This document shows positions 7,124 through 43,626 of a DNA stretch of 64,000 bases, in pieces. How positions within the stretch are numbered: position 1 is the first letter of the stretch; each line of letters opens with the position of its first letter. Both the position numbers and the translations under genes were made by a program. Below the pieces are notes generated by a model, which made no database searches, was not told the DNA's origin, and worked only from the letters and a program-made list of their open reading frames with translations. Origin of the DNA: Bacteroidota bacterium (lineage in GTDB: Bacteria; Bacteroidota; Bacteroidia; Bacteroidales; F082); the NCBI GenBank assembly GCA_014382445.1, contig JACNJS010000045.1, positions 1 to 64,000 on the forward strand, written 5' to 3'.

Positions 7124-7129
7124 TTTTTC

Positions 7130-13139: not shown

Positions 13140-13165
13140 ATTAGCAGGGTTATTTTATTTCAATG

Positions 13166-14377: not shown

Positions 14378-14413
14378 AATAATATTTTGGTGTTAGTTAA
14401 TTAACAATGTGTG

Positions 14414-14433: not shown

Positions 14434-14534
14434 ACTCCATAAAATCATTTTTAATTACGATAATTATTTTTTTAAAATTAAAGTGAAAATTACAATTCCC
14501 TTTAAGCAATCTAACAACTAAAAACATAAACAAC

Positions 14535-22888: not shown

Positions 22889-25800
22889 TCAATCCTTTCT
22901 GATTAATGCTAAAAGATCGAAATTAATTAGCTTGTTTGCCGACGCTATTATAATAACAGTTCCGGTAATTGAAATCACTAAAATGATTGATATCAAAAGT
23001 GTCCATGGGATTTCTACTCCGGTAAGTAATGAAGGAAGGGTGGCGATAATTGCAGGAATAGTGCCTGTAATTATTCCCGCAAACAGTATCATCAAATATT
23101 CTTTATATACCATTAAACGAAGCTTTTTTGAAGTAAATCCGCTTGCTATAAGAAAAGCATATTCTTTTTTCCTGGAGTCGATATTTCTCATCAAAATTAA
23201 TCCCAGACCAAAAATACCCAGCAACATGCCCAGTCCGCCAAGTGTAATAAAAACAGTAAGGTAAGTATTTGTAACCTCGTAAAACGATGCAAGGCGGTCA
23301 TCGGTGTATTCAACATTAATGCCATAAGTGTTAAATAAATTATCAATACTGGTTTTATAAACCTCTTTTTTGTCCGGATTTCCTCGGGCTAATAATATCG
23401 TACTGCCAGCGATAGAAGGCATAAAGCGACTAAAATTTTCACGTCCGATAATAACTGAACCCTGGAAGACCGACGGTTTAAGACCTCCTGCAAATACAAT
23501 ATGCAGGATTTCTCCGCTTTCAGCTATTATCGATAAAGTATCTCCAACCTTTAGTTTTAATCCCCATGTTAGTACTGTTTGATCGGCAATACCATAAATA
23601 ACATTTTCTTTGGCCGGTATTTTGAGTGCGTCCCATGGGTTGTTAACCTGTAACCTCGTTAATGCATTTGCAAATGAAAAAGACTCAGAGTGAGCAAGGA
23701 TATCACTATCAATACCCAAAACTGATGGCACTGCAATCTGGTTCAGGTTGAGACAACTGGCATCATCTCCCTCCATCTTTAATGCCTGAAGGAAAAATAA
23801 TTCGGAGTAATCTTCATTATCGAGACCGATTTTTATTCTGTCGTCAGGAAAATTAAGGTTTTCTTTAATTGGCGTCATTGTTTCGCACCACAACAAATAT
23901 CCTCCGGTACCACTTTGGTTCGACAGATAATCGAGGTCGAAACTCTTCCTGTTTGCCCCGGTAATTATGATAACGAAAAGTCCCGCCGCAATAAAAATAA
24001 CAGGACTGAGTGCTTTGGAAGGATAAAAAGCATAATAAAGCCAGGAATATTTTTTCATTGATATAAACGACCCGTTATTTGCTCTGGTCGTAAACCAAAT
24101 AACCCATCTGAAAAACAGTAGCAGGCTTATGAAAATTAAAGCGCCGCCAATAAAAAACAGCATTGTGGTTTTTTCGGATAAAAGAAACGTAGTTAAAAAC
24201 GGAATGCTTGCAATAATAACAGAAAGCGGAAATAGCCAACGAATATATCTTGTATTTCTTTTATTGCTTTCCGGTAGTTTATCTTTGTTCAGCCCTAGTA
24301 AAAAGCTTCGCGTTTTAACCAATAAAACAATAATGGAGATAAAAAATGTGCTTATAAGGGCTATAACAAGCATTCCGGGATCCGTATATGAAGACAAGGT
24401 GTTTGTTTGTACGGCGCCTTCCCATACCGTATTAAGGGCATAAATTATCACATCATTAAAAAGCACCCCAAGGAAAACTCCTGCCAAGGAGGCTAAAAAT
24501 GAAATAAACGCGGTTTCATACAACAATATCAATGCAATTTTACTATTTCTGAATCCCAATGAGAACAGAGTTACTACCTGGTTTTTTCTGCTTTCAAAGA
24601 AAGAAGAAACGAGCAGTGACAATAATAATATGCTTGAGGCAATAATGAAAAAGCTCAGGCTAAGAAACAGTGCTGAAAAATCAACACCATTATTTGCAGC
24701 CATCATCCCCTCGGCATAGGCATCACTAACAGAGAATCCAAGTTTTGCGGGATTAAGTTTTCCTGTAAAATCAGATACTATTTCTGCTTCTTCCTTGTCG
24801 ATGGGAAAACGTAATGCCGTTGCCGGACCAAAATTATTCCCCCATATACTAACCCCTTCCTCGTAATTAATAAATGCTTTGGGCGTTCCTTTAAAATTAT
24901 ACCAATAGTCCTCGTCCTTTTCCCTGATATTATCGTAATTAATCGATACCCCGGCATCCCAATTTGAGCAACTTTCGCTACCGGCAATTCCGGGAAACTC
25001 AGGCATAAAATTTGGGTCACCCCAGATTTTATCAATACTCACAATCTTGTCAACAATAAATTCAGAAGAGTCTTCAGAAAGGTTGTTTTTACTATCGCTA
25101 ACATAATACCTCAGCACAACCGTGTCGCCGGGTTTTGCAGCCAGATCTTCGGCAAGCCATGTATTAATTGTAATATTTTTCCCTTGAGGGCTTTCCATGT
25201 ACAAATTTTCAGGAATTGCAGAAACAAATGAATATGGCGTAGATTTGCAATTTGCATTGATGCTGTTTGCCAGATAAGTGATCAGGGGGCTGGCCTGAGG
25301 AGTGGCAACCATAATCTCTCTCACTACATTCTCATCAATAAAAATCCTGTCGGAGACAATCTCATATTGATTTAACGTTTCTATCTTCCTTATGTGTAAG
25401 CCGGCATCTTCCGGCGCAAGAACCTCTTTTAAAGCGTTTTCTGCTACTTCCGGAGTAATAAATTTATTGTTTTCGATAAGCATGCGGTTAGTTTTCGCGC
25501 CACCTTCGAAGGCCTGTCCGAGATCGGAAAGGTTAAAAAAAATATTTAACGCTTTAATCTGACTAATTCCAAGTGTAAAATTATCATAAGAGTCATTATT
25601 GGCTATGGCGCCAACGGTAAGTATTATTGATTCGTGAGGGTCCAATTCCGGGGCAAAAGGTGCATTTAACGGAATGTTTGAAATGCTTTCAAAACGAACT
25701 ATGATGTCGTCGCCGATATTTATTTTCAATCTATCGGCAAGTTTTTTATTTATGAGAGCTTCACCGGGTGCTAATTCTTCCCTTGAATATTCAGGGTTAA

Positions 25801-26188
25801 ACCTGAAAAAATCATTCCACACACCAAATATCTGCACGTTTACAACTGATTCTCCTGTATTAAAATTGGTGGTATATCCTTTAAGCTCAAGTATGCTTGT
25901 GCATTTGACATTTATTTTCTTCTGAAGTTTATTGCTTAATTCAGGGTTGAAATACCTTAACCCGGAACTAATTACAACCCCTGCATTATTGAGCTTCTTT
26001 TCGGTATTTGCTTTTAATGTTTGTCGCACAGAGCTTCCGGTAAGCAATGAGCCTGCAATAATTGCAGCTAAAAATGCAGTTATAAGGAACTGGTAAAAAA
26101 GCGGTGCGCGGTAATAAACCAACGACCTTAAAACAATATTCAAAATCCCCTTTCGCATCAATTTACTATTTAGTTGGGTTCGTTTCAT
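22889..26188 (-). CDS. FtsX-like ABC transporter permease
   Basis: At 1099 residues this is a large MacB/LolC-type permease with duplicated structure. One N-terminal membrane segment (~28-50) precedes a long periplasmic region, three segments near 505-640 form the first FtsX domain, further segments follow around 650-750, then a second periplasmic region, and three terminal segments (~980-1090, with FITLGGLGMLLGIFGLGLIL) form the second FtsX domain. Such permeases move lipoproteins, peptides or signals at the inner membrane without transporting through it. It pairs with the ATPase encoded 9 nt upstream. The cargo is unknown. Confidence 0.85.
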   Translation of the reverse strand: MKRTQLNSKLMRKGILNIVLRSLVYYRAPLFYQFLITAFLAAIIAGSLLTGSSVRQTLKANTEKKLNNAGVVISSGLRYFNPELSNKLQKKINVKCTSILELKGYTTNFNTGESVVNVQIFGVWNDFFRFNPEYSREELAPGEALINKKLADRLKINIGDDIIVRFESISNIPLNAPFAPELDPHESIILTVGAIANNDSYDNFTLGISQIKALNIFFNLSDLGQAFEGGAKTNRMLIENNKFITPEVAENALKEVLAPEDAGLHIRKIETLNQYEIVSDRIFIDENVVREIMVATPQASPLITYLANSINANCKSTPYSFVSAIPENLYMESPQGKNITINTWLAEDLAAKPGDTVVLRYYVSDSKNNLSEDSSEFIVDKIVSIDKIWGDPNFMPEFPGIAGSESCSNWDAGVSINYDNIREKDEDYWYNFKGTPKAFINYEEGVSIWGNNFGPATALRFPIDKEEAEIVSDFTGKLNPAKLGFSVSDAYAEGMMAANNGVDFSALFLSLSFFIIASSILLLSLLVSSFFESRKNQVVTLFSLGFRNSKIALILLYETAFISFLASLAGVFLGVLFNDVIIYALNTVWEGAVQTNTLSSYTDPGMLVIALISTFFISIIVLLVKTRSFLLGLNKDKLPESNKRNTRYIRWLFPLSVIIASIPFLTTFLLSEKTTMLFFIGGALIFISLLLFFRWVIWFTTRANNGSFISMKKYSWLYYAFYPSKALSPVIFIAAGLFVIIITGANRKSFDLDYLSNQSGTGGYLLWCETMTPIKENLNFPDDRIKIGLDNEDYSELFFLQALKMEGDDASCLNLNQIAVPSVLGIDSDILAHSESFSFANALTRLQVNNPWDALKIPAKENVIYGIADQTVLTWGLKLKVGDTLSIIAESGEILHIVFAGGLKPSVFQGSVIIGRENFSRFMPSIAGSTILLARGNPDKKEVYKTSIDNLFNTYGINVEYTDDRLASFYEVTNTYLTVFITLGGLGMLLGIFGLGLILMRNIDSRKKEYAFLIASGFTSKKLRLMVYKEYLMILFAGIITGTIPAIIATLPSLLTGVEIPWTLLISIILVISITGTVIIIASANKLINFDLLALIRKD

Positions 26189-26197
26189 CCTTGTTTA

Positions 26198-26869
26198 TCA
26201 AGCTGATGGTACAAGAACACCCTTTTCTATATGCATTTTTTTCTGCATTTTGGAGGCCAGATTTTCAGAATGAGTTACCACTATCAATGTGGTTCCAAGC
26301 TCCTTATTCAGATCAACCAATATATTGGCCATTAACATTGCATTATCCTCATCGAGAGATCCGGTTGGCTCATCGGCAAGGAGCAATTCGGGTTTATTAA
26401 TTAGCGCCCGCACCAGTGTAGCCCTCTGCGCTTCGCCTCCTGATACCTGCCACGGAAATTTGTTTTTAATTTCAACAATCCCTGTTCTTTCCATTAACGT
26501 TAAAGCATATTTTGAAGCCTCATTCTTGCTGTTATTGCTTTCTTTATTTGCCAGCAGAGGAAGTAATATATTCTCATAAATTGTAAGATGCGGCAGCAGC
26601 AGGTGATCCTGAAATATAAATCCTATTTTCCGGCTCCTGTAATATGCAGCCCTGTCGGCATCCAGCTTTGTAATATCTTCACCATTAAAAAAAACTTCGC
26701 CCTTATCAGGTACTGTTAACATGCCTATAATATTTAGCAGCGTCGTTTTTCCCGACCCCGAAGGCCCCGTTATAGCAAGAGAACATGATTCTTTAATTTC
26801 AAGGTCAAGGTTATCAAGTACCTGTCCGCGTTGCTGATATGATTTTGATAGTTTATTTATTTTGATCAT
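26198..26869 (-). CDS. LolD/MacB-type ABC transporter ATPase
   Basis: The 223-residue ATPase is complete: Walker A GPSGSGKT (35-42), Q-loop FQDHLLLPHL (~86), signature VSGGEAQRA (142-150), Walker B LLLADEP (162-168) and the switch His in VVTHSE. Its closest pattern is the LolD/FtsE/MacB group, which couples to FtsX-like permeases, and the partner follows 9 nt downstream. It lies 10 nt after the GT4 gene in the same run. Confidence 0.9.
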   Translation of the reverse strand: MIKINKLSKSYQQRGQVLDNLDLEIKESCSLAITGPSGSGKTTLLNIIGMLTVPDKGEVFFNGEDITKLDADRAAYYRSRKIGFIFQDHLLLPHLTIYENILLPLLANKESNNSKNEASKYALTLMERTGIVEIKNKFPWQVSGGEAQRATLVRALINKPELLLADEPTGSLDEDNAMLMANILVDLNKELGTTLIVVTHSENLASKMQKKMHIEKGVLVPSA

Positions 26870-26879
26870 GCTAAAACAT

Positions 26880-28178
26880 TTATAGTGTTTTTGTCAGCTT
26901 TTTATAGACTTCAATTAAACCCAATGCCATAGCTTTTGGTGTAAGGTTCTGGCTTATGGTTTCTCTGCCTGCTAATCCTATTTTATGCAGTTTCTCCCTG
27001 TCGTTAAGCAGTTCGTCAAGAGTTTCGGCAAGTTTTTCCACGGTATCCGGAGTATATGTAACACCCCCTTTTGTGGATTCTACAATTTCAGGAAAAGCAC
27101 CAGTATGTGGCTGAACAACCGGTACAGCTGAAGATATGGCTTCAAGAAGATATAATCCATAAGCGTCGTGTTTTCTAACCGGAACACTAAGCAAATCGAT
27201 GGAATTGAAAAATGACTGCTTTTGTGCACCGGAAAAAGCATTGTATAGGATTACATCGTTTTCCAGACCTTCTTTTTTCAACTTTGTTGTTTGCTCTTTG
27301 ATAAAACCCTTTTCGTCGCTGGTATATCCTCCGCTAAGATGCAGCTTAAGGCCGGGATGTGTATTTCTTTTTCTAATAATTATATATGCGTCGATAATCT
27401 TATCCAGTCCGTTCATTTTGTTAAGACGGGAATAGTATCCTATTGATGGTGCCTCAGAAGAATTATATAGTTTGCGGTCCCGTACAACTTCAAGCGCCGA
27501 CGGAACAACATAAATTTTGTCTTCACTAATCCCCGTTTTTGAAATTATGAGCTTTTTAAAGTAATGGCTTGTGGTAATAAAAAGATCAATGTGCTTTTCC
27601 TCCGCAGAGATAAGTTGCCAGGCCATGGTGCCATAGGGTTCTTTCATCTCGTCAATCCAGTCGTCTTCATTTTGCAAAGAACACACAACTGGTTTTCCAA
27701 GTACTTTTTTCAATTGTACGGCAACTCCCATGATTAACGCATTGGAGATATGAATTATATCTGTCCCTCCACTGTCATGAATAAATTTTGCAAGCCTGCT
27801 GATTTCTTTTTCCCTTGAAGGGTCATTGGTCCGAATCATACTCAGAGTAGTTTCTTCTAAACCAATGGGGTTTGTAGTGCCAGCCTGTTTGGCTGCAAAA
27901 TTTAGCAATGATGGCGAGTCAAGCAGCCTGTCAACAAATGTTGGCATTGACCTGAACAAAGGAACTTTTTCTTTAAGATATAAGGAAACTGCGCCAAAAA
28001 ACACTTCATTTTCTAACTCTCCCCCAAAATTTTTATCGCCCGGGGGAAGATATAACGGAATAGCAGAAACTTCAATATTTTCAATTTTCTTAAGCCAGGA
28101 AACATAGAGTGTGTCCCGCTGGCAATTGCCACAGTAAAAATTATCGCCTGAGCCAGGTATTAAATATGTGATTTTCAT
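26880..28178 (-). CDS. Family 4 glycosyltransferase
   Basis: The protein has 432 residues in a GT-B fold. MKITYLIPGSGDNFYCGNCQRD opens it (minus the last residues); the N-terminal domain carries an unusual early pair, CGNC (Cys17, Cys20). The C-terminal domain begins with SIGYYSRLNKMNGLDKIIDAY and holds the donor-site pattern KHDAYGLYLLEAISSAVPVV with the conserved Glu. The gene overlaps the preceding PQQ-like gene by 4 nt and is followed after 10 nt by the ABC ATPase, so it is part of the same transcript. The acceptor is unknown; modification of an operon-encoded envelope component is one possibility. Confidence 0.8.
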   Translation of the reverse strand: MKITYLIPGSGDNFYCGNCQRDTLYVSWLKKIENIEVSAIPLYLPPGDKNFGGELENEVFFGAVSLYLKEKVPLFRSMPTFVDRLLDSPSLLNFAAKQAGTTNPIGLEETTLSMIRTNDPSREKEISRLAKFIHDSGGTDIIHISNALIMGVAVQLKKVLGKPVVCSLQNEDDWIDEMKEPYGTMAWQLISAEEKHIDLFITTSHYFKKLIISKTGISEDKIYVVPSALEVVRDRKLYNSSEAPSIGYYSRLNKMNGLDKIIDAYIIIRKRNTHPGLKLHLSGGYTSDEKGFIKEQTTKLKKEGLENDVILYNAFSGAQKQSFFNSIDLLSVPVRKHDAYGLYLLEAISSAVPVVQPHTGAFPEIVESTKGGVTYTPDTVEKLAETLDELLNDREKLHKIGLAGRETISQNLTPKAMALGLIEVYKKLTKTL

Positions 28179-29299
28179 TTTTGATTTCCTTTCCCAAAAG
28201 CCATCAATCTTCCGTCTTCGGTAAGAACGAAAAATTTATTGTCGATTACGGCTGCCGTGCTGCTGATGGGCTTTCCGCTGTCAAAACTCCATATTTTTTC
28301 TCCATTATCCAGACTAACAATATAAATTTTCCCGTCGCGGCTGCCGAACAGAACTTTATCGTCAGATATTACAGCTGAGCTGGTTATTCTTCCGTCGGTT
28401 CTCATCTTCCACTCTACATCGCCGGTATTCATGTTGTAACAGTAAAGATATTTATCTTCGCTGCCAATAACAACCTTGCATTTATCAATTGCCGGTGTTG
28501 CAAGCAGTACACTCTGTTCGCTTTGTTGTTCCGACTTCCATTCCACTTTCATTGTATTTAGATTTATTCCGAAGAAATTACCATCGTAATCCCCAACAAA
28601 AGCTTTGTTTGACGATATTGCAGGTGATGAGGCAAGGTAAACTCCCAGGTCGCTTTTATTAACTTCTTTTCCGCTTACTGCATCAGCCACACGTAGATAA
28701 CCGTCGCAACCACCGAACACAATTTTATTATGAAATATTGCCGGAGTGCCGTTAATGAAATTCTCCGTTTCAATTTTCCAGATGGCGTTCCCTGAATCAG
28801 GGTCGACGCAATGGAGGTTGTAGTCGTAGCTGCCAACAATTATGAGATTTTTTTCATTATCAGTCCACATGTTTGCTGAGCCAGCGATCTGGTTTTCGGT
28901 ACGGTATTCCCATATAAGCTTGCCTGTTTTTGAATCAACTGCTCGTAATACTCCATCCAGTGCTCCGAAAACAACTTTGTTGTCGATTAACAACGGCGGT
29001 GCTTCTATAGCGTTCCCTGCCTCAAATTGCCACAGGATTTCTCCATCAATATTAATTGCAAATAATTCTCCAGCATTGTTACCGAAATAAATAATTCCCT
29101 CTTTTACAACGGGCGACGAAACTGTTCTGTTGTTGGTTTTTACTGTCCATAACAACGAGGGAGAAGAGGGAATAACGGCATCTGTTCTGCCCGAAAGATC
29201 TGCTCTGCCCCTGTAGTTAGGCCATTCGCTTTGCGAAAATTGGGCAAAGGATGAAATGTTGATTATTAAAAATAATATAACTAGTCTTATTCTATTCAT
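28175..29299 (-). CDS. Exported PQQ-like beta-propeller protein (4 of 4)
   Basis: The 374-residue protein has a signal peptide (residues 1-19, SFAQ). The start of the propeller has the motif WPNYRGRADLSG, shared in outline with the three other propeller proteins of the operon. About eight blades follow, each with a GxxxWxxxT-like turn (GEILWQFEAGN, GKLIWEYRTEN, GNAIWKIETEN, GDVEWKMRTDG, GEKIWSFDSGK). No haem-binding CxxCH and none of the metal and catalytic residues of quinoprotein alcohol dehydrogenases were seen, so a BamB-like scaffold or binding role is likelier than PQQ chemistry. It starts 3 nt after the Fe-S flavoprotein gene. Confidence 0.8.
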   Translation of the reverse strand: MNRIRLVILFLIINISSFAQFSQSEWPNYRGRADLSGRTDAVIPSSPSLLWTVKTNNRTVSSPVVKEGIIYFGNNAGELFAINIDGEILWQFEAGNAIEAPPLLIDNKVVFGALDGVLRAVDSKTGKLIWEYRTENQIAGSANMWTDNEKNLIIVGSYDYNLHCVDPDSGNAIWKIETENFINGTPAIFHNKIVFGGCDGYLRVADAVSGKEVNKSDLGVYLASSPAISSNKAFVGDYDGNFFGINLNTMKVEWKSEQQSEQSVLLATPAIDKCKVVIGSEDKYLYCYNMNTGDVEWKMRTDGRITSSAVISDDKVLFGSRDGKIYIVSLDNGEKIWSFDSGKPISSTAAVIDNKFFVLTEDGRLMAFGKGNQK

Positions 29300-29302
29300 T
29301 GT

Positions 29303-30838
29303 TTAAAAATCTTCGTGCTTACTTAATGCACCTGTTGGACAAACTTCGACAAGTATATCTGTTTTATTATTAAGAATGTCATTAAAATCATGAGTTAGCG
29401 GCTCCGAAATAATACTCTTAAATCCTCTTCCCTGGAAACCAAGTCCGGCGTTTATGGTTTCTTTATTTAACAACCTCACACATAATCCGCATTTAATACA
29501 TTTAGCGTTTTCAAAAATCAGGCCACTGGTAAAATTAATTTTCTTTTCGATCGGGTGGCTGTACATACTAACTTTTGGATTGATAACATTATAATCACCC
29601 GAAATATTTCGTAACATACAATTGTTAAGCGCGCGGCAGTCGCAATGCAAGCAATTTTTTGCTTCTTCTATGCTTTCTTCTAATGAGATGGGGGTTTTAA
29701 ATCTATTCGTTTCTTCGGGGGTTTCTTTAAGCCAGACCTTTTTTTCGTGATCTTCAATTTTTCCAATTACAGAGTTGAATTGCTTTACAACCGATATTAA
29801 TCTGCTACTTTTCAGAAAGTTATTAATTGCCATAGAGGCTTTTTTCGCCTGGCCAATATCACGTATAATCTGTTTGTTTTGCTTCGCAGCTTTGCCAATT
29901 TTAAAAACATGCACATCATTCAACACCATAGAATCTCCTTTAAATTGTATATGATTTTCTGAGATTGTGGCATTTTTGAGATTATCGAATCCGGGAACGG
30001 AAATTACAACGCTGTCATATTCTTTTGTTAATGACCTTGATAAGATATCGTTATTCACCTCAATGCCATACTTCATTTCGACACCCAATGCAAGAACATT
30101 TTTTAATTCATGCTCAAATATATATTTTGTCTCTTCTTCAAGCGTATTTATTATTGCACCTCCTGCATGATCCGTTTTTTCGAAAATCACACAATGATGG
30201 CCTTCCTGTGACAAAAAGAATGAGGCAGTAATTCCTGAAAAGCCACCACCGATTATTGCTACCTTTTTGCCTGTTGATTTTTTGAGATTGCCCGAAAGAG
30301 GCTCTTTTAAGTTGTGACTTTCAGATGAATAGCGCTTAATGTTGACAATTGAAATTGTATGGTCAATCATTTTTCGCCGGCATGCATTTTCGCAATATGC
30401 CGGACATATCTTGCAAAAAGTTTCAGGCATTCCCATTTCGGCCATAGCCAATTCTGCTGCTGCCTTAATATCACCCTTTTGAATATGCCTGTTCATAAGG
30501 GGAATATTCAGCCCAAGCGGACACACAAGTTTGCAGGGAGCCTCACATTCAGCTCTGTGTTCCGATAACAACATTGAAATCGCTTCTCTTCGCAGTTCCA
30601 AAACTTCTTTACCTGATGCATCGATTACCATTCCTTCAAGTGCCTGAGCAGAGCAGGAATGAATAAATTTATCCGTGGTCTTATTCTTTACAAGGCATAC
30701 AGAGCAGGAAGTATAATGAGGAAGGTCGTTGCGGTAGCAAAGCGAGGGTATATTGATACCGTTCAGTCGCGCAGCTTCAATTAATCTGGTTCCCTCTTTA
30801 ACCTCTATATTTTTATTATTTATCTGTAGCTTAATCAT
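29303..30838 (-). CDS. NuoG/GltD-like iron-sulfur flavoprotein
   Basis: The 511-residue protein combines several modules. Residues 1-75 are a plant-type [2Fe-2S] domain (Cys34, 45, 48, 62). Residues ~95-155 have two Cys groups (98/102/106 and 142/145/149/153) as in the Fer4_20 domain of GltD. An FAD Rossmann motif, AIIGGGFSG, is at 195-202. Cys396/399/401/407 come next. Last is a NuoG-like end with Cys447/450/453, GLGFQGRG and Cys500 in VCPTGAL. The FAD part (190-345) is far shorter than in GltD: the second NAD(P) motif GxGxxA is not there. It overlaps the NuoE-NuoF gene by 4 nt and probably takes electrons from that protein. Confidence 0.82.
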   Translation of the reverse strand: MIKLQINNKNIEVKEGTRLIEAARLNGINIPSLCYRNDLPHYTSCSVCLVKNKTTDKFIHSCSAQALEGMVIDASGKEVLELRREAISMLLSEHRAECEAPCKLVCPLGLNIPLMNRHIQKGDIKAAAELAMAEMGMPETFCKICPAYCENACRRKMIDHTISIVNIKRYSSESHNLKEPLSGNLKKSTGKKVAIIGGGFSGITASFFLSQEGHHCVIFEKTDHAGGAIINTLEEETKYIFEHELKNVLALGVEMKYGIEVNNDILSRSLTKEYDSVVISVPGFDNLKNATISENHIQFKGDSMVLNDVHVFKIGKAAKQNKQIIRDIGQAKKASMAINNFLKSSRLISVVKQFNSVIGKIEDHEKKVWLKETPEETNRFKTPISLEESIEEAKNCLHCDCRALNNCMLRNISGDYNVINPKVSMYSHPIEKKINFTSGLIFENAKCIKCGLCVRLLNKETINAGLGFQGRGFKSIISEPLTHDFNDILNNKTDILVEVCPTGALSKHEDF

Positions 30839-33234: not shown

Positions 33235-33265
33235 TCTTATTTCCTAAAACCTTCAAGCTATTAAC

Positions 33266-35101
33266 CTATTCCGAAATACAGTATAAATATTTTTCTCCTC
33301 TGATATAAATTTTTCCGTTAGAAAATGCAGGTGTTGTAACTACGCCTTCTCCTATTGGTGATTCTTCAATAATCGCAAATTCTTTATCCGCTTTAATAAT
33401 GTGCATCACTCCTGCCTGATCGATCATGTATACTTTATCATCGCCAACCAATATAGGCGAAGAATAGAAACCGTAATCAAATTCATAGTCCCATAGCTTT
33501 TCGCCTGTATTCGCATCATAACATGCAATGGCTCCGTAGCTTGTTGCAACAAAAAGAAGGTGTTCGGTTGCAAGGGGACTTGCTACTTCGGGCAAATATT
33601 CATTATCTTCCCAAACAATGGAGGCGTCTTTCCCCGGCTTTATGGCAACAAGTTTGGCAAATTCATTTGCAGCAAAAACATATTTACTGTTTATACCAAC
33701 AGAGGGTCCAACTTCGGCGCTCATGCACTTTGCCGACCACAGTTCCTCTCCTGTATTCGCATCATACGAAATCACAAACGGATCGGAACTTAAAATTACC
33801 TGAGTAATGCCATCGAAAACTGCCAATACCGGTGATGCCCATGATAGCGCAACATTACGCTTGGTTTCCCACAGTTTGTTTCCGGTTTTAATATCGAAAG
33901 CTATAAGTGACTTGGAAATATGATGATCATATTGAACAAGTATTTTGTGGTTATGAATTATAAGCGATGACGAATGACCGTAATGATTATCAGGAATTCC
34001 GATATTTTTTGCCCAAATTTGTTTTCCATCCATGTTGAGACAGATAAGGTTTCCTGTGCCAAAGATGGCAACCACCGATTCTACGTCAGTAGCGGCCGTA
34101 GGAGCGGCAAGGCCTGTATCCTCTGATGTGTCGGGAGCTTCGGATGGCTCTCCGGGAATATTGTTTCCTGGTGCTGTCCATAATATTCTTCCTGTATTTT
34201 TATCGAAACAGAAAATCGCTGCTTCCTCGGCGTTAGCGCCTGTTAAGAATAATTTATCTCCCCATATGATGGGAGAACTATATCCATGAATAGGAATTTC
34301 AGTTTTCCACAGGATATTGGTGCCCTGTTTACCATCCCATGTTATAGGATAATTGCCTGAACTTACCTTTCCCCTGCTTCCCTGTCCTCTGAAAAACGGA
34401 AAAACATCGTCTTCGGTTATCGTTATTGGAGGTAGTACAATAACCCTTTCGGGTTTTTCTTTTATCGTTGATTTATCGACTTCAATTTTAATATCATCTG
34501 GGCGTAGTTCTTCGCTTATAGCTACTGTTTCCACCGGAACTTCATTAGTAATAATTATAGGTTGGTGAGCAGGCGCTTCAATTATTGCACTAATACCTTC
34601 GGTAATAGCTTCTACGGGCACAGGCGTTGGGTTGGGCAACATGTTTCGCATCGAAAAGGAAATTACAATGGCTGAAACTATAATAATAACCGAAGCCGAA
34701 ATCAGATATTTTCGTGTCTCTTTTTTTGTCCGCGAATCAGGAGCATCCGTTAAAAATGCAGGAGATTTTTTTTCATTATCACTCAAAATGCGCTGGCATA
34801 GAAAAAATACTATTGCGCCAAAAAGAAGAAGATAGGAACCCGTTTCAATTTGCCATCGAGTTGAGAAGTATGCTTTTCTCGCCATCAAATCCAGCGCCCT
34901 TATTTGCTCTTTCAGGTCTTCCTGATTTGGGTTTGCATCATACTGTATTTTAAGTTCAGTTAGGGCAGGGTTTTCGAGAGGCTTGACCAGGGCCAGCTGC
35001 ATGAAGCTAAAAATCATGGTCATTGCGATCATTAACGAAAACATTGCCGAAGCATATGAAATCGTTCTCAAAAGCTTAATATTTTTTTCGGTCAGATTCA
35101 T
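33266..35101 (-). CDS. Membrane-anchored PQQ-like beta-propeller protein (3 of 4)
   Basis: The 611-residue protein differs from its paralogues in having three hydrophobic segments at the start: ~16-35, ~105-117 and ~131-150, the last two flanking a short cytoplasmic loop. A Pro/Glu-rich linker (~153-225) leads to the propeller, which opens with FPFFRGQGSRGKVS and has repeated blade turns such as GRILWTAPGN, GNKLWETKRN, GEELWSAKCM and GEKLWDYEFD. It would place the propeller in the periplasm, fixed next to the polyferredoxin encoded 5 nt upstream. No PQQ-ligand set is recognisable. Confidence 0.8.
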   Translation of the reverse strand: MNLTEKNIKLLRTISYASAMFSLMIAMTMIFSFMQLALVKPLENPALTELKIQYDANPNQEDLKEQIRALDLMARKAYFSTRWQIETGSYLLLFGAIVFFLCQRILSDNEKKSPAFLTDAPDSRTKKETRKYLISASVIIIVSAIVISFSMRNMLPNPTPVPVEAITEGISAIIEAPAHQPIIITNEVPVETVAISEELRPDDIKIEVDKSTIKEKPERVIVLPPITITEDDVFPFFRGQGSRGKVSSGNYPITWDGKQGTNILWKTEIPIHGYSSPIIWGDKLFLTGANAEEAAIFCFDKNTGRILWTAPGNNIPGEPSEAPDTSEDTGLAAPTAATDVESVVAIFGTGNLICLNMDGKQIWAKNIGIPDNHYGHSSSLIIHNHKILVQYDHHISKSLIAFDIKTGNKLWETKRNVALSWASPVLAVFDGITQVILSSDPFVISYDANTGEELWSAKCMSAEVGPSVGINSKYVFAANEFAKLVAIKPGKDASIVWEDNEYLPEVASPLATEHLLFVATSYGAIACYDANTGEKLWDYEFDYGFYSSPILVGDDKVYMIDQAGVMHIIKADKEFAIIEESPIGEGVVTTPAFSNGKIYIRGEKYLYCISE

Positions 35102-35106
35102 ATTTA

Positions 35107-36375
35107 TTAGTATTTCTCAGTATGCATCGGGCAATATTCGAAACAGCGGCCACAACTATAACAACTGCCCTGATCGGGCTTATATTCATCTCGTCTTTTT
35201 TTGATGGTTGTCAGCAATAAGGCTATTCCTAACGATAATCCAAGGAATCCGCCAACCCATGGTGCGCCTTTTCTAGTACGGGTTAATATTACCTTTTCTT
35301 CAGCGAATAACTGATCTAAAGTTACGCCGGACTCTTTAAACGTTACCGCGTCGATTGAAATGGCTTTAATTCCATTTTCCCTTTCCATACGTAGTTCATT
35401 TGCAAGCCTCACTTTTTGGTTAACCATGGCCAGATCATTTGAAAACATCTGTGTAAAAAATATTCCGCCAAGGGTAATTGCCGGTAATAAAATCAGATAC
35501 AGGATAAATTTCTTTCTTGATTTTATCATGCTTTCTTTTTCCTGCAATATGTCGGACGGAATAATTGCATTATATGGGCATGAGTTTTCGCAGAGCCTGC
35601 AATTTATACATGTGGTGGGAGTAATTGTTAGATGTTTATTTGAGAATCGCGACACCCAATTGAGGATAACACCATAAGGGCATAAAAAGCGGCAATATGG
35701 CCTGTTAATAAACACCCCGGAAATTAACAGCAGAATCCCAAAAATCATTATTGTTGCCGGACCGTTCAATCGGAAAATGCCAACAAACGGATCGTATTTG
35801 CAAATGATGAAATGACTGTTGGTAGCAGCAAATAAAATCGATAATGCCAGGTAGATATATGGAACTGTTGATAAGATAACTTCGGCTGTTCTGGGCAGCT
35901 TAACTGAATAGAACCCTGTTAATTCCTGGATAGCGCCCAGAGGGCATGCCCCCGCACAAAACTGGCGGCCATAAGCCAGCGTAAAGAGTATTGGGATAAG
36001 GAAAAAAAGCAACACCGAAAGTGGCAGCGTATAGCCATCGTTAAACAATGCAAGGGCAATATTTTGTATTGCGCCTATCGAACATATGCATCCCACCCGA
36101 AAAAAGCCGAAATATATTAGCGAAAAAAGTGAGATCAGCAAAATCGATTTCCTCGACCGTGTTTTTAATGTGAAGCGGGTTGTTAAGGCGAGAACGACAA
36201 TCAACACTACAACATCGATGTATTCCCACGCAGGGTTTCTTGGATCGGTAAGCTGGTATTCAGGATAATTGTAACCCGACTCGAAATCAGGCTTAGGGAA
36301 TCGCTGTTGTGCATATATAGCTGCATTCCATATGAGCAGAACAAATAATATTATGTATAGAATCTTTTTATTCAC
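35107..36375 (-). CDS. NosR/NapH-like membrane polyferredoxin
   Basis: The 422-residue protein has an apparent N-terminal signal segment (YAQ at 21-23) and about six further membrane segments. Cys motifs: GCICS (96/98), FCAGACPLGAIQE (140/144), YCRFLCPYGVI (228/232), a full ferredoxin set CINCRLCENSCP (256/259/262/266) and a C-terminal CYSCGRCFEYCP. The two CxxxCP motifs are those of the NosR/NapH/PceC group, which carry electrons across or along the inner membrane; the periplasmic FMN domain of NosR is absent. It overlaps the Tat ferredoxin gene by 4 nt, as napG and napH are often coupled. Confidence 0.85.
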   Translation of the reverse strand: MNKKILYIILFVLLIWNAAIYAQQRFPKPDFESGYNYPEYQLTDPRNPAWEYIDVVVLIVVLALTTRFTLKTRSRKSILLISLFSLIYFGFFRVGCICSIGAIQNIALALFNDGYTLPLSVLLFFLIPILFTLAYGRQFCAGACPLGAIQELTGFYSVKLPRTAEVILSTVPYIYLALSILFAATNSHFIICKYDPFVGIFRLNGPATIMIFGILLLISGVFINRPYCRFLCPYGVILNWVSRFSNKHLTITPTTCINCRLCENSCPYNAIIPSDILQEKESMIKSRKKFILYLILLPAITLGGIFFTQMFSNDLAMVNQKVRLANELRMERENGIKAISIDAVTFKESGVTLDQLFAEEKVILTRTRKGAPWVGGFLGLSLGIALLLTTIKKRRDEYKPDQGSCYSCGRCFEYCPMHTEKY

Positions 36376-36947
36376 GATTCATCAGTTTTATAGCCTTCCT
36401 TAAGAATATATGGTTTAGTGGCGGGAATTCGTTGAATAGCATCAGCCGGACAACTTTGGGCAATAGAACATTGATTACAGTTTACACAAAGCTCATGAAT
36501 TATCTGAAGATAAAGGGATCCGTTACCAAAATCGGCACATCCCTTAACACATTTTCCGCAGCCATTGCACAGATTTTCATCGATGGTGTATTCGAAATAA
36601 GGGTTTTCAACAAACGATCTTGTAATTGCTGACGTTGGGCATAACTGTAACTCAGCACCGGTATTGAGTTCTTTAACACCCATTCGAAGGTAACCACTAC
36701 ATAAATCGCAATATCCACACATTTCATAGGCGTGCATACATTTAACTGCCGAAACGGTTTGCACACAGTTTGTTTCACACTGTCCGCACTGCGTACAGCT
36801 ATAAGGGTCGATTTGCCAAACAAATTCCCCGGCAGTGGTTTTTGGCACCAGCTCCCATGCAAGATAGCCTATGGGTAAAGCAACCGCCAGTTTTCCAACT
36901 GATTTTACAAAATCCCTCCGGTTCTGATATTTATTTTTCCCGCTCAT
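36372..36947 (-). CDS. Tat-exported multi-cluster ferredoxin (NapG-like)
   Basis: The protein has 191 residues. A twin-arginine signal (NRRDFVKSVGKLAVAL, Arg10-Arg11) precedes the hydrophobic stretch, so the folded Fe-S protein is exported. Seventeen Cys follow, grouped as CTQCGQCETNC (51-61), Cys70/77/80/83, CP at 103, CNGCGKCVKGC (127-137) and CVNCNQC...CP (154-166), enough for four [4Fe-4S] clusters. In known systems NapG works with NapH in quinol oxidation or electron delivery to the periplasm. Here no nitrate reductase is near; the partner is the polyferredoxin whose gene overlaps it. Confidence 0.87.
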   Translation of the reverse strand: MSGKNKYQNRRDFVKSVGKLAVALPIGYLAWELVPKTTAGEFVWQIDPYSCTQCGQCETNCVQTVSAVKCMHAYEMCGYCDLCSGYLRMGVKELNTGAELQLCPTSAITRSFVENPYFEYTIDENLCNGCGKCVKGCADFGNGSLYLQIIHELCVNCNQCSIAQSCPADAIQRIPATKPYILKEGYKTDES

Positions 36948-36952
36948 CGGTA

Positions 36953-37126
36953 TTAATTTGATGATTCGATCTTACAATTTTCGAAATCAGTGCAATTGCT
37001 ATACTCGGGGCATGACTTACAATCCTTTTTAAAAACAAGCTTTTTGCCAAGTATTAAAATTAGCGACGACATGAGCAGCAGCATTATCATTCTGATAATT
37101 TTATGTATAAAGTCTTTCCTGCTCAT
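36953..37126 (-). CDS. 57-residue membrane protein with four Cys
   Basis: This small frame starts at the ATG at 37124-37126 and fits exactly between its neighbours (5 nt and 4 nt gaps). The N-terminus MSRKDFIHK resembles an Arg-Lys variant of a Tat motif. One hydrophobic helix spans residues ~11-27, and the polar end has KDCKSCPEYSNCTDFENC with Cys36, 39, 45 and 51, enough to bind one Fe-S cluster or another metal. Being between the Tat ferredoxin and the CGCC protein, it is probably a small periplasm-facing redox or assembly partner. That role is inferred from position only. Confidence 0.7.
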   Translation of the reverse strand: MSRKDFIHKIIRMIMLLLMSSLILILGKKLVFKKDCKSCPEYSNCTDFENCKIESSN

Positions 37127-37130
37127 TGTA

Positions 37131-38063
37131 CTAAAGATTTCTTATAAAGATATATAAAATTGAATCGGCCCCATTTGCAGCATAAATTTTGCTCTCTTTG
37201 CTTATCGCGATATCAAGGGGAAAGGATGGCTTAAATAAAGCTGATTGCTCAACCAGCTCGATCAGCTCTCCTTTTTTATCAAGCACTTTAATGCGGTTAA
37301 TTCCCTTTTCGGCAGTAACAATTTTTCCATCAGGTAAAAAAGCAAAATGCGCCGGATTGCAGCAACCGCAGAAATCTTTCAGTTCTATGCCTTCCTCTCC
37401 GAAACTACTAATTATTTCACCGCTTATTGTTCTGAATTCAATTTTTCGTTTTCCGGGATTTGCAACAGCCAGGGTATCATCTCCAAAAAATGCAACATCG
37501 AAATACGGACTTGGTACAATAAACTGATTACGCGGCTGTCCGAAAAAATACTTTAAGGAACCATCTTTATTTAAAACGAAGACCATCTTATTTCCTGCAT
37601 CAGCAAAAGCTATATAATTATTATTTGAGGTGATACTGGTTATGAACGAGCCATCATCATAAGGACCCCATTCTTCAATAAAATTGCCATCCAAATTAAA
37701 TAAGCTAACCGTTTCTTCTGTGGCGGCATAAATAGTATCGCCAAATACCGACAATGCTATAATGCTTTTTTCGGCAGTAATATTCCATCGTAAGGATAAG
37801 TCGGCCAAATTGTAGGACGCCAGAAAATCTTCTCCTCCAACAATAATTGTATTATTATCACCAATGGCAACTGCAACTAATTTCCCAGTAGGTATTGTTA
37901 GCGTTTCCGCGATGGTCCATGCTGGCTTATGTGCTTCCGCAGATTCTTTAGCGTTTACCAATAATTTGTTCACCTGCTTTCCTGTTGTGGTGTCATAAAC
38001 TATATAAGCTATAAACAGGATTATAACAGCAAGTGAAAAATATGTCGCAATTTTTTTATTCAT
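37131..38063 (-). CDS. Membrane-anchored NHL/WD-like propeller protein with a CGCC motif
   Basis: The 310-residue protein has an N-terminal membrane anchor (residues ~8-24) and then a periplasmic propeller made of about six NHL-like repeats (YNLADLSLRW, FNLDGNFIEEWG, LNKDGSLKYFFG, RTISGEIISSFG, LDKKGELIEL). In the fifth blade, FCGCCNPAHFAF holds Cys232, Cys234 and Cys235, followed by LPDGKIVTAEKGINRIKV. The three Cys lie in a protein otherwise free of Cys, so a metal, cluster or disulfide function is likely. It is not a c-type haem motif. It lies 11 nt downstream of the second PQQ-like gene. Confidence 0.75.
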   Translation of the reverse strand: MNKKIATYFSLAVIILFIAYIVYDTTTGKQVNKLLVNAKESAEAHKPAWTIAETLTIPTGKLVAVAIGDNNTIIVGGEDFLASYNLADLSLRWNITAEKSIIALSVFGDTIYAATEETVSLFNLDGNFIEEWGPYDDGSFITSITSNNNYIAFADAGNKMVFVLNKDGSLKYFFGQPRNQFIVPSPYFDVAFFGDDTLAVANPGKRKIEFRTISGEIISSFGEEGIELKDFCGCCNPAHFAFLPDGKIVTAEKGINRIKVLDKKGELIELVEQSALFKPSFPLDIAISKESKIYAANGADSILYIFIRNL

Positions 38064-38074
38064 AACGTGTTAAT

Positions 38075-39508
38075 TTACAGACCAACGTATATGCTAACCA
38101 TCCTGTGGGAATCCCTCAGAATCAAATACCCATCGATATAGGCCATTGGACCCCAGGCATCTACACCTTCTTCAAAAACCTTGTGTTGTGCCAGAAGTTG
38201 GGCGCTTTTGTTATCGATTATTTTATAGAGAAACAATTCCGAATCATCATTCATTAGAAACATTATATCACCTGCCAGAAGATAAGGACCTAGTCCATAA
38301 CGATTTTCCTTGCCGCTTGTCCAAACAGGATAGGTGAGATCAGATACATGATAACAGGCAAGCTGGTTTCGCAACGCTCCCGCATCTTTTGGGTTTATTG
38401 TCCATATATATTCTCCGGTTACAATTGGCGTTTGTTGCTCACTTGCCAATCCTTCTTTCGGGCTGTGTTTTTCAATAAGTATGGCTTCATAACCGGTATC
38501 TGTTTTTAAAATTCTAAATTTTGCACCTCCGGCACCATAACCCGTTGTTACAATAATTTCATTATTGCCCGGAAATACAGGACTGGCAGCAACTACCGTC
38601 GGGCTCCATTCTGTTGTACTCCACAGCAACTGCCCAACATCATCACCTTCAGCAGAAATACCGGCAACACCTCCAATTGCCATATAAACGTAGGTTTTTT
38701 TTCCATGGAATGTAGTTGTAAAAACAGATGAATGCGACATTTTCCAATTGTCGGGATTAGGTGTTTCCCAAACTATTTCACCGGTATAACAATTAACCCC
38801 TACTGCAAGCTTTTCGCCACCAATTGCAATAACGGCTATGCTGTCGTCAATAAGAGGACATTGTGCCGTATACCATTGCGGAAGATCGGCGCCATAATTC
38901 CGGATCAAATCCATGCTCCAAATCAAATCGCCGGTGGTTGAATTTGAGCACATCACATGGCATCGCGGCCCGAAAGTTATTACATATTCGTTGGTTACTG
39001 TTGGAATAGACCTCGACATGCCGTGATTTCTTTTAATTAACACATTATACCATCTCCGCCATAATTCTTCACCCGTACTAAACGAAAAAACCCGAAGAGC
39101 ATCAGCCTTGGCCTTCTCGTCGTAGTCGAGTACATATACTTTGCCATTATGGATAGCCGGGCCGGCATGGCCTTCGCCAAGATCTATTTGCCATACAATT
39201 GGAGGGCCTTCTAATGGCCAGCTTTCGGCAACTGGAGTTCGGTTGTTGCTGATATTATTAAAATCGACTCCCCTAAACCGTGGCCAGCTACCGCTGTTGT
39301 AAACATCTGGTTCGTTGAATATTTCAAAAAACTCGCCAATAATAACGCTGTCGTTTTCACCGATCGTTAAGGGTCGGTTATCCATTCCGGGAAGTGAGAT
39401 AATAAAATCGCGGGTTGGCTGATTAAGTAAATACCAAAGAAATGCAGATGTAAAAATTATTATAATTACAATAATCAATAGCCTGCTGTTTAGTATCTTA
39501 TCAGTCAT
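38075..39508 (-). CDS. Membrane-anchored PQQ-like beta-propeller protein (2 of 4)
   Basis: The 477-residue protein has a single N-terminal membrane segment (~7-26). The propeller starts with SWPRFRGVDFNNIS and the DLGEGHAGPAIHNGKVYVLDYD region; blades carry GEELWRRWYN, GDLIWSMDLI and GEIVWETPNP turns. Five Cys are scattered and do not form an obvious site. The best-conserved part of the family, the GxGxxxPxxxxxxVY stretch, is present. It is the second gene of the run, 63 nt after the first propeller gene. Confidence 0.78.
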   Translation of the reverse strand: MTDKILNSRLLIIVIIIIFTSAFLWYLLNQPTRDFIISLPGMDNRPLTIGENDSVIIGEFFEIFNEPDVYNSGSWPRFRGVDFNNISNNRTPVAESWPLEGPPIVWQIDLGEGHAGPAIHNGKVYVLDYDEKAKADALRVFSFSTGEELWRRWYNVLIKRNHGMSRSIPTVTNEYVITFGPRCHVMCSNSTTGDLIWSMDLIRNYGADLPQWYTAQCPLIDDSIAVIAIGGEKLAVGVNCYTGEIVWETPNPDNWKMSHSSVFTTTFHGKKTYVYMAIGGVAGISAEGDDVGQLLWSTTEWSPTVVAASPVFPGNNEIIVTTGYGAGGAKFRILKTDTGYEAILIEKHSPKEGLASEQQTPIVTGEYIWTINPKDAGALRNQLACYHVSDLTYPVWTSGKENRYGLGPYLLAGDIMFLMNDDSELFLYKIIDNKSAQLLAQHKVFEEGVDAWGPMAYIDGYLILRDSHRMVSIYVGL

Positions 39509-39571
39509 TTTTTAAAAGACAGCCCTTTGGTAAAAATGGAAATATTAAAGCAATGCAAAGATGATGAAATA

Positions 39572-40843
39572 TTACTTTATAGAATGCACCATCAGCACTT
39601 CGCCATGACGTAAATATAATCTGCCATCGCGGATCACCGGGTGAGCCCAGAAAGGGCCTTCCCCTTTGGTCATTTGGAAACTGCTTACGAGGTCAAACTT
39701 TTCAGGTGTTGGATTTACCAGGCCAACGTTTCCCGTTTTTTCTTCAAAGATATACAACATACTATCGGCAGAAATTATAGAGCCCTTGTTAATCCACCTT
39801 TCCGACCACATCGTTTCGCCCGTGTTCCAGTTTACACAAACCCAATTCCCCATTGAATTGCTCTCGTAGCTGGTAGCATAAATGTAATCGCCCAGCAGCA
39901 GCATTCCACCATGGTGGGGGCCAATGTCGCGACTTTCCCAAACCACCTCTGCCGCCGAACCATCCTCAGAAAGCTCAAGCATTACAGCAACATATTTATA
40001 ACCATTGGCAATAAATACTTTTCCGTCGTTGTACAGCGGCGTGTTAGTATGATTATTTCGCGCCCTTCCCTCCACTGCATTAAGTTCATTGTAATTAAAC
40101 TTCCACAAAATCGTTCCGTCAACTGCATCAACGCCAATTATATATGTGTCGGTTAATGTTACTATCAGGCTCCGGCCATTATGAACTACCAATTTAGGAT
40201 TTACATATTGAGGTGCCTCATTAAGGGGTGCTGCCTCCCATATTACATCACCATTTTCAATATTATAAGCAACCAGCGAAGCCTTATCCCCGCCGGGAGA
40301 TGCTATTACTTTATTATCATAAACCAGGGGTGATTCGGAAACGCCAAAACGTAAAGGTTCTCCTCCATAAGTTTGGTAGTGATCTCTTTTCCATTTAATT
40401 TCTCCGGAAGAGTTCAGGCATACCAGCTCGCCAATTCCGCTGATAAGAAAAATATCGCCGTTATAATATGTTGGTGTTGATCTGGTGCCTTCAAAATTTC
40501 TTGTCCAGGCTTTTCCGTAAACTGTTTCCCATATTATTTCACCATCAAACGTAAGGGCGGTTATTACATCAAAGCTGTCTTTCCTTCCGGTAACATAAAT
40601 AGCATCGTCAGAAATAGTTACGGATGAATATCCTTCACCAAGGCTGTCGAGTTCCCACAGTAACTCAGGACCACTTTCGGGCCATGTTTTTAGTAGTCCT
40701 GTTTCGTTATAGATTCCGCCGCGATCCGGTCCACGCCAGTCGTATAGCTGTGCATGAGAAAGTGAAAAACACGAAACAAAAAATAGTACGGCAATAATCC
40801 TAAAGTAAATTTTCATGGTAAATTGATTAAAGATTAAGAACAA
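39572..40843 (-). CDS. Exported PQQ-like beta-propeller protein (1 of 4), first gene of the redox operon
   Basis: The protein has 423 residues, or 414 if it starts at the ATG at 40814-40816, which gives the better signal peptide (MKIYFRIIAVLFFVSCFSLS, ending in SHAQ). The mature protein begins YDWRGPDRGGIYNETGL, a motif typical of BamB-like propeller proteins. Blades have GEIIWETVYGK, GEIKWKRDHY, GDVIWEAAPL, GTILWKFNYN and GETMWSERWI turns. It is the most upstream gene of the run. No catalytic or haem site is visible. Confidence 0.8.
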   Translation of the reverse strand: MFLIFNQFTMKIYFRIIAVLFFVSCFSLSHAQLYDWRGPDRGGIYNETGLLKTWPESGPELLWELDSLGEGYSSVTISDDAIYVTGRKDSFDVITALTFDGEIIWETVYGKAWTRNFEGTRSTPTYYNGDIFLISGIGELVCLNSSGEIKWKRDHYQTYGGEPLRFGVSESPLVYDNKVIASPGGDKASLVAYNIENGDVIWEAAPLNEAPQYVNPKLVVHNGRSLIVTLTDTYIIGVDAVDGTILWKFNYNELNAVEGRARNNHTNTPLYNDGKVFIANGYKYVAVMLELSEDGSAAEVVWESRDIGPHHGGMLLLGDYIYATSYESNSMGNWVCVNWNTGETMWSERWINKGSIISADSMLYIFEEKTGNVGLVNPTPEKFDLVSSFQMTKGEGPFWAHPVIRDGRLYLRHGEVLMVHSIK

Positions 40844-42888: not shown

Positions 42889-43622
42889 GTTCAAAAATTA
42901 AAATTCTCATCGTAGATGATAATATCCCATTCTGCGAGAACCTGGTCGAAATTGTGGAATTGCATGATTTTCATGCCGAATATATTGATGATGGGTACAA
43001 AGCCATCGAAGCTGCGAAGAACAATGATTTTGATCTAGTGCTGCTGGATATCAAGATGCCTTTGATAAATGGTGTTGAAACCTTTAGGGAGATTAAAAAA
43101 GCTAAACCAAAAATACCGGTCATCATGATGACAGCTTTTGCACTCGAAGACCTTATTAAGGAGGCATTACAGGAAGGGGTTTTTTGTGTACTTCATAAAC
43201 CACTCGACATGGGAAAACTGTATTCTACAATAGAAATGGCAACACAGAAAAACACATTGATTCTGGTAACTGATGATGATCCGTTAATAGGCATCAGTCT
43301 TACAAAAATTTTGAAGGAAAAGGGTTACAATGTAAAAACTGCAAAAGATGGCAAAAGCGCAATACAAATGACCAAGGATAGTAAGTTTGACATATTGATA
43401 CTCGACATGAAACTTCCAATTCTTAATGGCCTGGAAACCTTTTTGGCCATACGGGAAATACGCCCGTATTTAAAAACAATTATCATTTCAGGTTATTCGC
43501 GGGATAAAAGTGGAGCTGTTGATCTGGCCATGGAGAAAGGTGCCTATGCATTCCTTGAGAAGCCATTGAATTTTGAATTACTACTAAAGTATCTGGAGGA
43601 GATTGAGAAACTAAAAGCTTAG
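42885..43622 (+). CDS. Double receiver-domain response regulator without output domain
   Basis: The 245-residue protein consists of two CheY-like receivers in tandem. Receiver 1 (~5-118) has acidic Asp11/Asp12, phosphoacceptor Asp55 (VLLDIKMP), Thr83 and Lys105. Receiver 2 (~125-240) has Asp130-132, Asp174 (LILDMKLP), the Ser of IISGYS and the Lys of LEKPLN. Both look active. No DNA-binding or enzymatic domain follows, so it should pass phosphate on or act through protein contacts. It lies between two kinase genes in one transcript. Confidence 0.92.
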   Translation: MSSKIKILIVDDNIPFCENLVEIVELHDFHAEYIDDGYKAIEAAKNNDFDLVLLDIKMPLINGVETFREIKKAKPKIPVIMMTAFALEDLIKEALQEGVFCVLHKPLDMGKLYSTIEMATQKNTLILVTDDDPLIGISLTKILKEKGYNVKTAKDGKSAIQMTKDSKFDILILDMKLPILNGLETFLAIREIRPYLKTIIISGYSRDKSGAVDLAMEKGAYAFLEKPLNFELLLKYLEEIEKLKA

Positions 43623-43626
43623 TCAA

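Follow-up and report, generated by a model that had tools for sequence, protein, structure and literature searches.

What could be the function of a gene set that places an NAD(H)-linked flavoprotein module of the Bfu family beside a membrane polyferredoxin, an exported iron-sulfur (Fe-S) protein and several periplasmic propellers? The question is raised by 13 genes, named A to M from 5' to 3', in a stretch of 64,000 nt (hereafter the window) on contig JACNJS010000045.1 of a Bacteroidota bacterium from the family F082. The gene set would work like the Bfu enzymes and NapGH and its components are of known kinds, but no description of the combination was found in the open-licence literature. A preliminary description of the window, made from its letters alone, had likewise known of no system with this gene set, and no match to a characterised pathway emerged from our searches. 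We consider it about an even bet that the operon encodes a transmembrane, NapGH-like Fe-S conduit to propellers free of pyrroloquinoline quinone (PQQ), with the Bfu module as its usual input. The genes are as follows.

A, 39572..40816, minus strand: propeller of the PQQ_2 type whose start reads as signal-peptide-like; relatives have 1-3 tandem copies
B, 38075..39508, minus strand: PQQ-like propeller with an N-terminal helix; the best conserved of the propellers
C, 37131..38063, minus strand: NHL-type propeller that starts with a helix and has two adjacent invariant Cys, C234-C235 (GCCNP)
D, 36953..37126, minus strand: protein of 57 aa with an RKDF start and four Cys
E, 36372..36947, minus strand: twin-arginine (RRDF) multi-cluster ferredoxin
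F, 35107..36375, minus strand: NapH/MauN/NosR-like membrane polyferredoxin with 15 conserved Cys
G, 33266..35101, minus strand: BamB-like propeller whose N-terminus has segments that read as hydrophobic
H, 30835..33234, minus strand: fused BfuC-BfuB (NuoE-NuoF) that has the FMN/NAD domain, the ligands of the clusters and the motif H727-x4-C732-x4-C737
I, 29303..30838, minus strand: StnC-like BfuA candidate with 2Fe-2S, GltD-type Fe-S, FAD fold and C-terminal Fe-S motifs, without the NAD(P) Rossmann domain
J, 28175..29299, minus strand: ACSF4/BamB-like propeller with a signal-peptide-like start (by reading)
K, 26880..28178, minus strand: GT4-type glycosyltransferase with a conserved FYCxNCxRD N-terminus
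L, 26198..26869, minus strand: LolD-like ABC ATPase
M, 22889..26188, minus strand: FtsX-type duplicated permease

All 13 genes lie on the minus strand between 22889 and 40843, and the gaps in the list of open reading frames (ORFs) range from -4 to 63 nt (A-B 63, B-C 11, C-D 4, D-E 5, E-F -4, F-G 5, G-H 31, H-I -4, I-J 3, J-K -4, K-L 10, L-M 9). The tight packing, common direction and partial overlap given in the preliminary description agree with these values, and its inventory of Fe-S proteins, propellers, a glycosyltransferase and a LolD/FtsX-type transporter matches the domain scans, in which A, B, G and J are four PQQ_2/BamB-like propellers. Gene A had been called from a TTG at 40843; a Met at residue 10 is found in 92% of 71 rows, and the ATG at 40816 is thus the likely start. 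Domain scans gave no family hits for D, and in 80 of 93 loci an ORF with a loose four-Cys pattern separates C from E. None of the 13 proteins reached a curated NCBIfam cut-off (for F, H, I and L, among the best 25 rows).

The arrangement is more than chance, because related genomes repeat it gene by gene. The order is kept in Bacteroidota and in the KSB1 phylum, and partly in Acidobacteriota. In the main set of 88 loci, which includes some KSB1 and Aminicenantes records and for which only loci with enough flank were counted, the neighbours were kept as A-B 59/61, B-C 72/76, C-E 71/74, E-F 75/75, F-G 69/72, G-H 55/63, H-I 45/47, I-J 37/39, J-K 36/36, K-L 9/10 and L-M 8/8. Two pairs, L017/L104 and L084/L136, each represent one genome entered twice. 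The 14 KSB1 loci gave B-C 11/11, C-E 11/12, E-F 12/13, H-I 8/8 and J-K 3/3; L-M was 0/2 there, yet one of these two (G820, L188) has J-K-L-M further on. Five divergent Acidobacteriota loci (L131-L135) all contain B, C and E, with F and H in four each and I in three; K and L were not found at these loci, and an FtsX-like gene lies near in two. Among loci with enough flank, B and F stand beside E at 56 of 59 in the main set, 10 of 10 in KSB1 and 5 of 6 in Acidobacteriota, the misses being L061, L106, L132 and L030, which has N runs and was left out as a variant. B, E and F are the part common to nearly all lineages. The co-occurrence of Fe-S and propeller genes, which the preliminary description had proposed to check, is therefore found well beyond this genome, and uniqueness, which it had named as refuting its view, does not hold.

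A strong relative of gene E, at an E value below 1e-60, occurs in 9 of 100 family genomes, the window's own genome counted; at 1e-3 a match is found in 33 of 100, the remaining 24 being no better than 4e-7. At 1e-25, one of 395 phylum genomes has a relative, namely the window's own genome, the rows listed there being nearly complete genomes. At 1e-15, the KSB1 phylum has relatives in 18 of its 82 genomes, and the phylum to which the Aminicenantes genome belongs has them in 7 of 297. From a species collection with 584 pattern matches, 539 of them encoding a relative of gene E at 1e-3, the best 80 were used. Plasmids were also searched for gene E, with no match. Gene E was present in exactly one copy per genome in 14 of 14 genomes (1e-10).

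By analogy, E-F would be a NapGH-like Fe-S conduit. As in the NapGH type pair, a twin-arginine multi-cluster ferredoxin adjoins a membrane polyferredoxin with CX3CP and 4Fe-4S motifs; unlike that pair, E-F is linked to a Bfu module and propellers instead of a nitrate or N2O reductase, and the NapG and NapH cut-offs are not reached. NosGH and MauMN are ferredoxin pairs of the same type. The RR.F motif of E is invariant in 9 rows and TatC is present in 27 of 27 operon genomes searched, which agrees with the earlier proposal of a ferredoxin exported by the twin-arginine (Tat) route. The domain content of F, with C140-x3-C144-P and C228-x3-C232-P conserved among its 15 Cys, likewise agrees with its description as a NosR/NapH-like polyferredoxin. 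No FMN-binding Pfam hit was obtained for F at E 0.01, in which it differs from NosR and from flavinylated NapH-like proteins; PMC8238504 describes most, but not all, NapH-like proteins as carrying this domain, and NapH-like systems as serving reductases or oxidases modularly. F in the membrane and E on the twin-arginine route would carry electrons between the cytoplasm and the periplasmic propeller proteins.

On the periplasmic side, B is the best-supported partner of E-F, and it is the most conserved of the propellers. Its model (pLDDT 87.7) has BamB, tetrathionate hydrolase and YxaL as nearest folds. B is thus alike to these proteins by fold, but it scores below the BamB cut-offs and has an invariant residue set of its own: D128, Y129, N161, H162, R166, N251, M257, S258, H259, R465 and D466 do not vary in 21 aligned sequences, which suggests that they mark a site. 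The model of C (pLDDT 88.9) is NHL-like, and GCCNP is invariant in 17 rows. The fold searches returned PQQ-like folds for B and NHL folds for C; VIA-align was used for B alone, so that other families may fit as well. B would be the dedicated partner of E-F, with C, D, G, A and J around it. PqqC was found in 0 of 27 operon genomes searched (a control record was positive, 1/1) and CXXCH in none of the 13 window proteins, so PQQ and c-type haem are not expected. The propellers are thus probably PQQ-free. A PQQ enzyme was rejected on the absence of PqqC from the 27 genomes together with TIGR03075 (PQQ dehydrogenase), for which A, B, G and J fall far below the cut-off. An identification of B as a tetrathionate hydrolase was not adopted either, since the similarity seen to TetH, whose catalytic site includes Asp325, is at the repeat level only.

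The cytoplasmic side is best read from H and I. H combines NuoE and NuoF, with a small 2Fe-2S domain between them and a pair of 4Fe-4S domains at the C-terminus, in one chain (Pfam hits), and its best PDB matches include NfnB (9n5u), Stn (8oh5) and hydrogenase HydB chains; 8oh5 is the Stn of Sporomusa ovata named in PMC10482914. The core features of BfuBC are present in H: a NuoE-like 2Fe-2S cluster, the FMN/NAD NuoF domain, the 4Fe-4S cluster B1, two C-terminal 4Fe-4S clusters and an N-terminal 2Fe-2S cluster. Candidate ligand Cys are kept in 53-56 of 56 rows, and the misses are gaps, except for a Gly at C663. According to Schut et al. 2022 (PMC9304861), bifurcating BfuB is recognised by a His that ligates cluster B2 and is absent from non-bifurcating homologues. 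This motif, H727-x4-C732-x4-C737, is present in 54 of 56 H rows (L029 and L033 have gaps there) and in four further Acidobacteriota H rows. The Bfu/Hyd-type NADH module of the preliminary description gains support from both the core and the His ligand. Because H has the Bfu signature, it may have a second partner besides NADH, likely ferredoxin, if H bifurcates at all. The window's own genome has two other NuoF homologues: one (L026, C75) has the Bfu His motif and lies near genes that read as HdrA- and AOR-like, and the other (L027, C88) is without the motif and lies in a locus that reads as hydrogenase-like.

The first ~290 residues of I match StnC (8oh5_C) and NfnA. The NAD(P) Rossmann domain corresponds to a ~150-column gap in 11 of 12 aligned rows, the window included, and is kept in an Acidobacteriota row; besides the StnC/NfnA-like N-terminal part, no third-substrate site was seen. 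I had been described as a NuoG/GltD-like flavoprotein: the GltD-like character with a 2Fe-2S cluster stands, but the NAD(P) Rossmann domain is absent in the window. Compared with StnABC of S. ovata (PDB 8oh5, PMC10482914), H resembles StnA plus StnB and the N-terminal part of I resembles StnC, but I has 511 aa against 1172 aa, lacks the NADPH Rossmann domain and is too short for the FdhF-like domain, for which it gave no Pfam hit. With the Bfu family (HydABC, NiFe-Bfu, Nfn-Bfu), H shares the NuoE/NuoF core, the FMN/NAD domain and the B2 His with two following Cys. The operon differs in that the core is fused in a single chain, that I is without an NAD(P) site in the window, and that it is accompanied by a membrane pair of the NapGH kind and by periplasmic propellers. 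The main text of PMC9304861 uses none of the terms PQQ, Tat and polyferredoxin; it describes two other membrane-bound Bfu types and 17 clades without assigned function. I may be a BfuA with its own nucleotide site lost, and for that reason its Fe-S chain would most likely end on the C-terminal cluster of F. H and I would then link the conduit to NAD(H), and probably to ferredoxin, in most lineages.

Some relatives have lost parts of the set. Of 61 complete I proteins, three have an NADP motif (Acidobacteriota, 689-695 aa), 44 have 512-580 aa, 13 have 349-367 aa and one has 966 aa. The FAD fold appears to be kept in the 44 of middle length, judging from length and alignment; a motif search matched only 18 of them. 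In a maximum-likelihood tree of F (94 rows, midpoint root), the window falls in a 26-row clade (100/100), a 23-row part of which holds all 13 short-I rows; inside that part, six rows that lack both H and I group together as a single clade (100/99). Among the loci without H and I, gene C is absent in L043, L047 and L052, and only its two ends are left in L085; it is kept in L049 and L063, and L046 has it at the contig edge. C loss tends to accompany loss of H and I. These data suggest a reduction series in which the FAD fold was first kept and then lost, followed by H and I, and in some cases by C. As the tree was rooted at its midpoint and the three NADP-motif rows are not in it, this order of losses is only inferred.

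Seven loci are without H and I, and their genomes gave only partial matches to I (mostly draft assemblies). In the L043/L047 pair, eight genes (B, E, F, G, J, K, L and M) have dN/dS values of 0.06-0.13 at dS > 1, and A gave none; two other pairs gave four dN/dS values of 0.06-0.16, the rest not being computable. All 15 of the F cysteines are kept in six of six rows without H and I. Since the other genes remain without H and I, under purifying selection where measurable, NADH may be regarded as a replaceable input, and what lies in the membrane and periplasm seems able to function when the NADH module is missing. In these lineages, something other than the Bfu module would feed the conduit. The path from NADH through H, I and F to E that had been proposed earlier is hence retained in its parts, but NADH is not obligatory in it. 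Its direction may also be no more than one reading, as the direction of electron flow is not fixed by gene content.

On the preferred reading, a NapGH-like conduit to PQQ-free propellers, we favour outward over inward flow, with a substrate or cofactor being reduced at B in the periplasm. With the direction reversed, a propeller would oxidize a periplasmic substrate, and E, F, I and H would pass the electrons on by bifurcation, to NAD+ and to ferredoxin. Most enzymes with PQQ-like propellers are oxidative, which would suit the inward direction. So would the descriptions of Bfu enzymes as reversible in PMC9304861 and of NapH-like proteins as occurring with alcohol oxidases too in PMC8238504. 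We nevertheless regard it as doubtful, given the PqqC count (0/27), the absence of CXXCH from the 13 proteins, and the lineages that have shed H and I, which would be left without an NAD/ferredoxin acceptor. A further-reaching form of the preferred reading is also rather improbable in our estimate: a new kind of membrane-spanning bifurcating or confurcating enzyme with a Bfu core, which would reach a third, periplasmic substrate via the NapGH-like conduit, and in which the PQQ-free propeller B is catalytic or substrate-binding, with selenocysteine perhaps at a ferredoxin cluster position in two Acidobacteriota loci, and with the core shed and the conduit re-plugged in some lineages.

The last three genes bear on two other explanations. 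Where the flank is long enough, K, L and M come after J at nearly every locus of the main set, and they do so in KSB1 G820 (L188), and they stay in the four loci without H and I that were inspected. The electrons of E-F might serve to mature or repair a periplasmic product, for which the propellers would act as a scaffold while K-L-M glycosylate and export. The conserved place of the glycosyltransferase, LolD and FtsX genes within the set (J-K 36/36, K-L 9/10, L-M 8/8), also in those four loci, agrees with such a role, as does the close fold match of B to BamB, an assembly factor. MauN relatives are biogenesis factors as well. Still, no client enzyme recurs widely among the flanks clustered or inspected, and two Acidobacteriota loci retain B, C, E, F, H and I without K and L; we consider this explanation unlikely. 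Acidobacteriota loci, having the redox core without K and L, would fit two units that share a stretch by convenience, A-J for redox work and K-M for the unrelated export of glycolipid or lipoprotein. This is the least probable of the explanations in our judgement, because K-M follow J so regularly, and because they are under purifying selection where H and I have been lost.

Several observations weigh against the conduit reading, or at least limit it. E scores 16.7 bits against an NCBIfam cut-off of 269 for NapG, and F scores 49.7 against 234 bits for NapH and 54.2 against 213.05 for the NapH/MauN family. The propeller models single out no specific enzyme, and the absence of PqqC is compatible with imported PQQ. 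L061 and L106 have no B within 4.5 kb of E, and L132 has no F. In three of 56 H rows (L067, L086 and L105, related proteins), Gly replaces the B1 cluster Cys C663. The seven loci without H and I mean that the NADH link is not essential, and dS is high or not computable in most of the comparisons behind purifying selection. K, L and M are conserved yet left unexplained by a conduit. Finally, gene E has an in-frame TGA in two Acidobacteriota loci (L134:10237-10239, and codon 76 of 9906-10499 in L135), the remainder of E being open. The TGA falls exactly on the second Cys of CGYC (C80 in the window), which is conserved elsewhere and is Cys in L131-L133. A 7-bp hairpin follows soon after the TGA in both loci, with unremarkable folding energy (z -0.4) and in two stretches that are near-copies. 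The TGA may stand for selenocysteine at a cluster position, or the gene may be broken. The sequences themselves show the conservation of the genes, their domains and cluster ligands, the missing parts of some lineages and the lack of a PqqC match, whereas complex formation, electron path, topology, direction and order of losses are inferred.

If the conduit reading is correct, the known membrane-bound Bfu types would be joined by one that has a periplasmic partner: a 13-gene redox system that recurs in Bacteroidota, KSB1 and some Acidobacteriota, mostly uncultured. Some PQQ-free propellers would also gain a genomic role. The natural losses (NADP site, FAD fold, H and I, C) point to B-E-F as hardest to lose. 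Two cultured relatives have the operon, Mariniphaga anaerophila DSM 26910 (L076) and Maribellus sediminis (L078), in which the substrate question is directly testable.

Genes flanking the operon were also compared. Squalene-cyclase-like genes lie upstream of it in L075, L078, L090 and KSB1 L165, but a terpene partner was rejected as obligate, the squalene-cyclase homologue being present in 2 of 100 family genomes and in 1 of 9 operon-bearing ones. ArsF/ArsG-family genes are near the operon in L040, L167 and L175, NifS-like genes in L061, L167 and L175, and L075 and L090 have a permease of the ArsP/SaoE kind nearby. When 133 loci were scanned over 4 kb, arsF matched in 3, arsG in 3, arsP in 2, nifS in 4 (one weak) and sqh in 6; the scan includes the loci used for profile building as well as loci unrelated to the operon, and little was found beyond the former. 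ArsG is present in 9 of 9 operon-bearing genomes against 40 of 91 other family genomes, as raw counts that ignore kinship and genome size. A link to arsenic or sulfur is therefore only a weak lead. Within the window itself, at 1122-3889 on the minus strand, an ArsG-family permease stands beside three kinds of ORF, which by reading resemble ArsP (a permease), AhpD and ArsF (a thioredoxin). Sulfatase genes flank 9 of 80 loci and asnB 12 of 80 (both named by reading); these flanks look lineage-specific.

Other features of the surroundings were noted mainly by reading. In K, the residues F14, Y15, C16, N18, C19, R21 and D22 are invariant in 41 rows, and we know of no other GT4 enzyme with this N-terminal motif. 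Arrays of sulfatase-like genes lie upstream of the operons without H and I in L043, L063 and L085. In KSB1 L165, the squalene-cyclase-like genes belong to a cluster directly upstream of the operon (602-7424) that also has genes for DGC, ferredoxin, radical SAM and a fusion of polyprenyl synthase with DUF116, and ABC importer-like genes lie between F and G (12951-15497). A V-type ATPase-like gene set is found downstream of the operon in Mariniphaga anaerophila (L171:4537-12147). In the window, a same-strand FG-GAP gene begins 82 nt beyond M (21298-22806, minus strand), and a histidine kinase/response regulator set lies upstream on the opposite strand (41374-48024).

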